From contig DASYCE010000017.1 of NCBI GenBank assembly GCA_036500345.1, positions 74,071 to 138,070 of the forward strand: a DNA stretch of 64,000 bases. The letters run 5' to 3'. The DNA is from Gemmatimonadales bacterium. GTDB lineage: Bacteria > Gemmatimonadota > Gemmatimonadetes > Gemmatimonadales > GWC2-71-9. Below are positions 25,422 to 48,164 of the stretch, in pieces. The translations under genes were made by a program, and so were the position numbers. The notes below the pieces were generated by a model. It saw only the letters and a list, made by a program, of their open reading frames with translations. It searched no databases and was not told the origin of the DNA. How positions within the stretch are numbered: the stretch's first letter is position 1; the number at the start of each line of letters is the position of its first letter.

Positions 25422-25976
25422 TTACCAGGCCACCGCGTAGCGCGAGAAGTGATGGATCTGGGCCGAAATGGTGTGCGAGGTCCGCGAGGTCGGGAGCCGC
25501 TCGAGGATGTTGCCGAAATCGTCGGTGTAGACGACCTGCGCATTCGCCGGGTTGCCGAGACAGTCGGTGTTGAACGTCAGTGTCGGCGGTGCGTCCGAGG
25601 CGAATTTCAGTCCTTCAGGGAAGTACTGGACGGTGATCGTCTTCCCGATGAGCGAGGGAAGGGCGACGATGTGCGTCAGCTGCGACAGGGCGTGCTTCGG
25701 GATGACGAGCGACGTCGCGCCGAGCGTGACGGTGCCACCGTTCGGCCCGATGTCGACACTGATGCTGCCCGACAGCGCGCATCCCAGCGACGTGAGCGGC
25801 CCGGGGAGGTGCAGCGTCGGCAGCGGCAGCGAGAGCGTCAGGTTCTCGCTCGGCTTCGGAGCCGTGGTGGTGGTCTGCGATTCGGGCGCGGACGGCGCCG
25901 TCGGCAGCGAGCCGCCGCAGCCGGCCAACATCACGGCGGCGAGTGCAGTCGCGAAACGAACGGGGGTGCGGAACAT
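25422..25976 (-). CDS. Lipoprotein with ZU5-like domain
   Basis: A 184-residue lipoprotein (lipobox LAGC, C20) with a Thr/Pro/Ser-rich spacer near 25-50 and a beta-rich domain with the ZU5-like run GPNGGTVTLGATSLVIPKHAL, then a C-terminal HHFSRYAVAW typical of extracytoplasmic ZU5-type domains. The ATG at 25976 follows GGAG by 7 bp. It is the first gene after a 150-nt leader that resembles a c-di-GMP riboswitch, and the HD-GYP gene follows 4 bp after its stop. A role at the cell surface under c-di-GMP control is a reasonable guess; function is not known. Confidence 0.8.
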   Translation of the reverse strand: MFRTPVRFATALAAVMLAGCGGSLPTAPSAPESQTTTTAPKPSENLTLSLPLPTLHLPGPLTSLGCALSGSISVDIGPNGGTVTLGATSLVIPKHALSQLTHIVALPSLIGKTITVQYFPEGLKFASDAPPTLTFNTDCLGNPANAQVVYTDDFGNILERLPTSRTSHTISAQIHHFSRYAVAW

Positions 25977-26101
25977 CGACCTGCTCCTTCCACTTGTGGT
26001 TAGTCGTGACCAGTCAGACTTCCGAGGCATCGCGCTCCGTGTCTCCTGCTCGCCGACTCCACGACGCAGAAACGCGGTACCTCCACTCCGAGAACCGAGG
26101 G

Positions 26102-26117
26102 GAGACACCGCTGTCTC
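26102..26117 (-). promoter_or_regulatory. Hairpin directly after the riboswitch-like leader
   Basis: GAGACA / TGTCTC with a 4-nt loop lies about 11 nt downstream of the aptamer-like fold in the mRNA. There is no T-run behind it. Its 5' arm is part of a sequence that can instead pair with the aptamer, so it may belong to the expression platform. Confidence 0.4.
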
Positions 26118-26127
26118 GCGACCCTGG

Positions 26128-26222
26128 TCCACCTTCGGCACCTAGCCATCTCGCCTTCCGCCCGTGGCGGTGCGAGACCTTCGGTTTTGCGACCCCGGAT
26201 CACTCCGGGTGTGCTGTATCGA
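26128..26222 (-). promoter_or_regulatory. Candidate c-di-GMP-I (GEMM) type riboswitch
   Basis: Read on the minus strand, the leader holds a stem CCCGGA/TCCGGG closed by a GNRA loop (GTGA, plus 26200-26203), then GTCGCAAAACC, then GGTCTCGC, a long hairpin, GCGAGATGGCTAGG and TGCCGA. In order and spacing this follows the GEMM-I pattern GACGCAAAGCC - GG..CU - AG..AGCCGGG - UUGCCGA. The GNRA stem and the GCAAA joint are the parts that fold onto the second stem in known aptamers. The 5' GGGCAAACC strand is poorly kept (ACAGCACACC), so it may be a variant. The operon behind ends in an HD-GYP gene, which fits. Confidence 0.5.
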
Positions 26223-26479
26223 GTGAATCAGTTTTGACCACTTGCCCGCAATTCAGGCGATCGAAAGGAGAGGCAAAGGGTATGCCGCGGCTTCGTCCTG
26301 GTCTCTTGATGAGATCAACTGTCGAGAAAGTATTGACGTTTTGGTGCAAAGTGCTACGAAAAAGTCTCTATTCGAGAGCGTAATTGCAGATCAACTGCAA
26401 CGCTGCAGCAACCATTTGATGGACGACGGCAACAAAGTGTGGCGGCTCGGCATCGTTTGTGCCCATCAGGTTACATACC
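26223..26479. other. Low-GC divergent intergenic region
   Basis: Between the riboswitch-like leader and the ABC substrate-binding gene there is no convincing gene. The stretch near 26300-26420 is visibly poorer in G+C than all its surroundings. It holds a direct repeat AGATCAACTG (26312-26321 and 26388-26397), an inverted repeat TTGCAG-ATCAA-CTGCAA (26384-26400), and a TTGACG at 26333. A frame of about 110 codons that crosses it continues into the ABC gene in another phase and has no family features. Confidence 0.5.
26333..26360 (+). promoter_or_regulatory. Weak candidate promoter for the ABC transporter operon
   Basis: TTGACG (26333-26338) is followed after 16 bp by TACGAA (26355-26360). 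The -35 is good and the -10 poor. It lies between the two AGATCAACTG repeats, which might bind a regulator. Confidence 0.3.
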
Positions 26480-48080: not shown

Positions 48081-48164
48081 TGCCGAAGGGGGGACTCGAA
48101 CCCCCACGGGCTTGCGCCCACTGCGCCCTGAACGCAGCGCGTCTACCAGTTCCACCACTTCGGC
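48081..48164 (-). tRNA. tRNA-Leu (CAG anticodon)
   Basis: Read on the minus strand, the 84-nt gene starts GCCGAAGTGG and ends in the paired CTTCGGC plus discriminator A. The anticodon stem CTGCG/CGCAG holds a loop TTCAGGG with anticodon CAG. A long variable arm follows (GTGGGCGCAAGCCC), as in class II tRNA-Leu, then the T-arm with GTTCGAGTC. The 3' CCA is not encoded. Confidence 0.95.

Follow-up and report, generated by a model that had tools for sequence, protein, structure and literature searches.

The minus strand of the window, the whole 64,000-nucleotide stretch of Gemmatimonadales DNA analysed here, carries a structured leader followed by a two-gene operon (Table 1). The first gene encodes a lipoprotein for which no Pfam family was matched. 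The second starts 4 nt past the stop codon of the first and encodes a predicted phosphodiesterase in which the HD residues and the HHExxDGxGYP motif of the HD-GYP family are intact, in agreement with the first-pass annotation, which had placed the leader ahead of a lipoprotein/HD-GYP operon. The HD_5 domain and this motif are shared with HD-GYP phosphodiesterases, whereas the N-terminal TPR repeats set the protein apart from them; its putative substrate is c-di-GMP or cGAMP. Homologues of the lipoprotein and of the enzyme occur in 40 and 42, respectively, of 102 genomes of the Gemmatimonadaceae, the family to which the window's genome belongs. Close full-length homologues in named public records are all from Gemmatimonadetes, several of them from Gemmatimonadaceae. 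A phage search with the HD-GYP protein returned weak partial matches only, and a plasmid search with the lipoprotein returned no match.

Table 1. Features of the leader and operon, with a candidate cyclase gene located elsewhere in the same genome. Pocket positions follow Vc2 numbering.
Feature	Position	Strand	Basis
P1 5' strand	26220..26227	minus	covariation with 26128-26137
GEMM-I (c-di-GMP-I class) riboswitch aptamer	26134..26225	minus	RF01051 36.9 bits; subclass model R3 89.8 bits
A20, specificity position (G in c-di-GMP-type, A in cGAMP-type)	26215	minus	alignments A3, A4; 35/35 subclass members
P2 with GUGA (GNRA) tetraloop	26189..26214	minus	sequence, alignment
A47	26188	minus	alignment; invariant in subclass
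P3, including P3b (26177-26172 with 26154-26149)	26140..26187	minus	folding, covariation
C92	26138	minus	alignment; invariant in subclass
P1 3' strand, conserved AA bulge at 26135-26134	26128..26137	minus	covariation
Downstream hairpin and strand of the alternative pairing; no support as a switch	26102..26119	minus	folding, shuffles
TTCTCGGAGTGGAGG, similar to the pre-Shine-Dalgarno motif TTATCGGGCGTGGGAGG found in related leaders; role here uncertain	26080..26094	minus	sequence likeness
GGAAGGAG, likely ribosome-binding site of the lipoprotein gene	25984..25991	minus	sequence
Lipoprotein gene, 184 aa, lipobox LAGC	25422..25976	minus	ORF; alternative in-frame start at 26030 possible
TPR-HD-GYP phosphodiesterase gene (predicted), 538 aa	23801..25417	minus	Pfam HD_5 131.9 bits, TPR repeats, HHEKYDGTGYP
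GGDEF fusion gene L177, in the window's genome	L177:1495-3192 (G000:C16:46617-48314)	minus	

The leader is a genuine GEMM-I aptamer, beyond a chance match. It scores 36.9 bits with the Rfam covariance model RF01051 (gathering score 35), with an E value of 0.0014 when the 64 kb are compared with all Rfam families and of 1.7e-5 when the whole genome is searched with RF01051. The order of its parts on the minus strand is the GEMM-I order that had been claimed for it: a GUGA-capped P2, GTCGCAAAACC, GGTCTCGC ... GCGAGATGGCTAGG, TGCCGA. The characteristic P1/P2/P3 junction, with a GNRA loop on P2, is supported by covariation, and the P1 flanks reach to about 26227 and 26128, outside the scored aptamer (26225-26134). 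Of the two models that the first-pass annotation had named for checking, only c-di-GMP-I matches: a permissive scan gave no Rfam match of the leader to c-di-GMP-II. The c-di-GMP-I-UAU model (RF03168) gave 38.7 bits in a close scan against a cut-off of 65.9. Besides the leader, Rfam matched just one element in the window, a tRNA (48081-48164, minus).

Related aptamers define a coherent subclass. A model built from seven similar aptamers (R2) and run on the family genomes returned 35 full matches of at least 96 bits, the next match dropping to 71 bits. The members are marked by GCACACC, in most cases by GCAAAAC, and by CCGAAGG, which gives the AA bulge in P1; P3 is mostly one nucleotide shorter on its 3' side. 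Covariation among relatives, to which the first-pass annotation had tied its claim, is present: in the subclass it lies above slid controls and exceeds all 500 shuffles on every measure. The alignment of the 35 members that gave the latter result was fitted to the structure, but the MAFFT alignments A3 and A6, which are independent of it, show the same. A further model (R3), made from 23 members without the three leaders of lipoprotein/TPR type (those of the window, G050 and G064), scores these three at 89.8, 110.3 and 62.5 bits, respectively. In the window, P1 pairing is kept despite letters that differ from those of relatives. The idea of an altered GEMM-I variant holds, with a variant pocket in a coherent subclass. 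The segment GGGCAAACC, previously described as degenerate, is changed but is not degenerate: it departs from the class by a defined set of differences (G20 to A, A24 to C, one nucleotide less in J1/2 and one less in P3), most of which define the conserved subclass.

The models RF03168 and RF03167 (c-di-GMP-I-GGC) are often the best-scoring Rfam models for the subclass, all scores seen being below the gathering cut-offs; members reach 44-48 bits with RF03167, against 59. The pockets of these two families are U/A/U and G/G/C. The subclass has A20 and C92 in place of the U20 and U92 of the former, and A20 and A47 in place of the G20 and G47 of the latter. A description of the subclass was not found in the literature searched, the coverage of which is incomplete. 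What is new here is the subclass, its phylum and a possible cGAMP pathway; the class and its way of sensing are already known. Among weaker matches in other families of the phylum, 20 were read, and most of these likewise have an A ahead of G21.

What follows subclass members is mostly a STAS-domain gene with a response regulator, or genes for small lipoproteins that carry an HExxH-like motif, and most operons homologous to that of the window are without an aptamer match. In G064 the order is riboswitch, TPR-HD-GYP gene and lipoprotein gene. In G050 the riboswitch is followed by the lipoprotein gene and a TPR protein without HD-GYP, and the TPR-HD-GYP gene is divergent. The enzyme itself is thus under the aptamer only in the window and in G064.

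The pocket consists of A18, C19, A20, G21, A47 and C92 in Vc2 numbering. A18, A20, A47 and C92 are found in 35/35 members, and G21 is likewise invariant. The base directly 5' of G21 is A under any placement of the one-nucleotide J1/2 deletion. The RNA therefore has the A47 and C92 of GEMM-I and the A20 of cGAMP-specific GEMM-Ib, not the G20 of c-di-GMP-specific GEMM-Ia. We take A47 (26188) to stack between the two bases of the ligand and C92 (26138) to be the partner of the ligand G, as in known structures. Since C92 and A47 read guanine in those structures and both are invariant here, a ligand without G is unlikely. In the structurally characterised cGAMP aptamer the residues used are A14, A41 and C75 (PMC6274999), and in Desulfobacca a variant with A at position 20 gains affinity for c-AMP-GMP (PMC9481103). 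A20 points to cGAMP or mixed specificity. It has been described as a selectivity factor and not a filter (PMC9262584), so that the RNA may still bind c-di-GMP.

A GEMM-I match is present in 80 of the 102 family genomes. Position 20 of the 148 aptamers examined is A in 82, G in 62 and a gap in 4. A48 accompanies every G20, whereas 69 of the 82 A20 aptamers have G48. In alignment A1, the covariation of which lies far above shuffles and slid controls, 8 of 33 RNAs have G-C in place of A-U at the 48-90 pair. Being linked to A20 (alignments A1 and A2) and adjacent to A47, G48 may be a second specificity determinant. The second confident GEMM-I match of the window's genome (L001:1501-1595, G000:C2:135362-135456; 41.5 bits) likewise has A20, with G48, and precedes a small putative lipoprotein gene. 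A third match (L003, 27 bits) is below the cut-off and was taken as chance. Some leaders carry two or three GEMM-I aptamers in tandem (L237, L239, L243, L231, L219 and L217); some of these mix G20 and A20 in one leader, and such arrays could possibly act as two-signal gates. Four other GEMM-I leaders (L275, L279, L298 and L316), from genus g1 and one other genus, lack one nucleotide around position 20 (ACAGGCACACC) and precede similar putative lipoprotein genes.

Candidate sources of cGAMP can be sought among GGDEF proteins. Hypr GGDEFs have Ser at position 347 of GacA, a GGDEF rather than GGEEF motif, and, at the cross-dimer site 303/304, Tyr in place of Arg (PMC6456294). The published Hypr residue at 347 is Ser or Thr, and such cyclases are rare, at 0.17% of GGDEF domains (PMC9140294). 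A Ser347 GGDEF occurs in 30 of the 102 family genomes, with Tyr at residue 303 in 20 of the 30 and His in 7. Twenty-seven of the 30 group together, sharing a hydrophobic N-terminal region that by eye looks MASE1-like; this group, with Hypr marks, spans 27/102 genomes (L187-L211, L214 and L215; for example L193, G009:C48:215394-215495). Among the aptamers listed, which go down to a score limit, A20/G48 types are present in 23 of these 27 genomes versus 10 of 35 others, a co-occurrence with a genus-level p of 0.004 when kinship is ignored. None of the seven GGDEFs in the window's genome has Ser347 or Thr347, a trait of the genome and not of the RNA. Several are canonical diguanylate cyclases with Asp347 and Arg303. 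L177 is a ferredoxin/Fe-hydrogenase-like domain fused to a GGDEF with Asn347 and Tyr303. Its homologues occur in 78/102 family genomes, and all 23 that are readable have Asn347 with Tyr or Phe at 303. L177 is a candidate, putative source of cGAMP; that cGAMP would be the product of an Asn347 GGDEF is a guess.

As to how the aptamer might control expression, the first-pass annotation had proposed that the 5' strand of P3b chooses between two exclusive partners. The strands exist: GUCUCGC (26178-26172) pairs within the fold with GCGAGA (26154-26149), and is complementary over 7 bp to GCGAGAC (26119-26113), with which pairing would break the hairpin at 26102-26117. As an expression platform, however, the arrangement is not supported. 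Forcing the 7-bp alternative costs 7.3 kcal/mol for aptamer plus hairpin and 8.7 kcal/mol for the whole leader, and its ensemble probability is 0.00, versus 0.95-1.00 for P3b. When the 74 nt downstream are shuffled with dinucleotides preserved, 40% of the shuffles contain 7 bp of complementarity to somewhere in the aptamer, and 3.4% to the P3b strand itself. The complement is not repeated in the homologous leaders G050 and G064, read directly, and the usual route of action of GEMM-I switches is through P1. The switch was therefore rejected on grounds of energy, chance frequency and conservation, and we regard it as extremely improbable. No intrinsic terminator is predicted in the leader, and full-leader folding of three operon homologues gave no shared competing structure. 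The P1 5' strand of the window can also form a duplex of -15.5 kcal/mol with sequence further downstream, but this was rejected, since 14 of 200 shuffles equal it. Two arrangements are seen in relatives. In most genus-14 members the Shine-Dalgarno sequence GGAGG lies within the P1 3' strand, with the ATG 13 nt after C93, so that P1 formation would mask it. A TTATCGGGCGTGGGAGG-like segment complementary to the P1 5' strand and J1/2 is present in 18 of 34 members (against a mean of 2.8 and a maximum of 6 in shuffles) and lies mostly directly ahead of the start site. Since this strand would pair with the P1 5' strand and J1/2 before the start, P1 formation would free the start site. The two arrangements are predicted from the sequences to work in opposite directions. 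In relatives P1 competes with sequence at the ribosome-binding site of the leader; the most likely point of action is therefore translation, and by analogy this points to translational control of the window operon. In the window, TTCTCGGAGTGGAGG would form a weak duplex with P1 (-9.7 kcal/mol) and lies roughly 100 nt ahead of the likely start codon.

The leader belongs to a Gemmatimonadota subclass of GEMM-I with an A20/A47/C92 pocket, and we hold with modest confidence that it responds to 3',3'-cGAMP, perhaps together with c-di-GMP, and acts as a translational switch. Ligand preference and mode of action are both what we infer: ligand binding would fix P1, the helix that closes the pocket, and the switch would govern how the two operon genes, for the lipoprotein and the TPR-HD-GYP enzyme, are translated. 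Alternatively, this could be a c-di-GMP riboswitch that merely carries A20, c-di-GMP regulating in a feedback loop the HD-GYP enzyme that degrades it. The match to RF01051, the HD-GYP gene in the operon and the canonical Asp347/Arg303 GGDEF proteins of the genome are in line with this, as is the ability of A20 aptamers still to bind c-di-GMP (PMC9481103, PMC9262584). However, every subclass member has A20 in a family where G20 aptamers are common, and in tested systems A20 shifts preference to cGAMP (PMC9481103); the alternative seems possible but doubtful. That both signals are sensed about equally, or that the ligand is another cyclic dinucleotide such as c-di-AMP, agrees with A20 being only a selectivity factor (PMC9262584) and with the Asn347 of the candidate cyclase, outside the published Ser/Thr, but is at odds with the invariance of the guanine-reading C92 and A47, and appears improbable. 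It is still less probable that the aptamer is a decayed remnant without function. Its score is barely above the Rfam cut-off, its platform motif is distant from the start codon and most homologous operons are without it; against this, every pocket letter is kept, P1 still pairs with letters unlike those of relatives and the subclass model gives 89.8 bits.

More tentatively, Gemmatimonadota may possess a cGAMP or mixed cyclic dinucleotide pathway with A20 GEMM-I receptors, including the translational subclass, Ser347 or Asn347/Tyr303 GGDEFs as sources and, at this locus, feedback through the HD-GYP enzyme. In some lineages the source would be a Ser347 GGDEF of the membrane; here it would be an Asn347/Tyr303 GGDEF fused to a hydrogenase-like Fe-S protein. 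So far, cGAMP riboswitches have been described chiefly in Geobacter and a small number of other bacteria. If this pathway exists, A20 aptamers and cyclases with Hypr residues would extend bacterial cGAMP signalling to Gemmatimonadota, and the aptamers would be ready-made reporters for it. With its hydrogenase-like domain, the Asn347 cyclase would represent a novel type of synthase, one that might be tied to redox or hydrogen sensing.

In comparison with c-di-GMP-I riboswitches such as Vc2 of Vibrio cholerae, the window RNA shares the fold, A47, C92 and a score over the RF01051 gathering value, and has A20 where Vc2 has G20. With GEMM-Ib of Geobacter it has in common the P1-P2-P3 architecture, the GNRA loop, A20, A47 and C92. 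It differs in its phylum, in C24, the shortened P3 and the AA-bulged P1, and in being without a predicted intrinsic terminator; it would be of cGAMP type by sequence in a genome that has no Ser347 cyclase. Geobacter GEMM-Ib controls cytochrome and pili genes, whereas HD-GYP, STAS/response-regulator and lipoprotein genes are found here. Four A20/A48 aptamers of the family (L009, L014, L015 and L249) lie ahead of genes with a pilin-like N-terminus (by eye), a context that recalls the control of pili by cGAMP in Geobacter.
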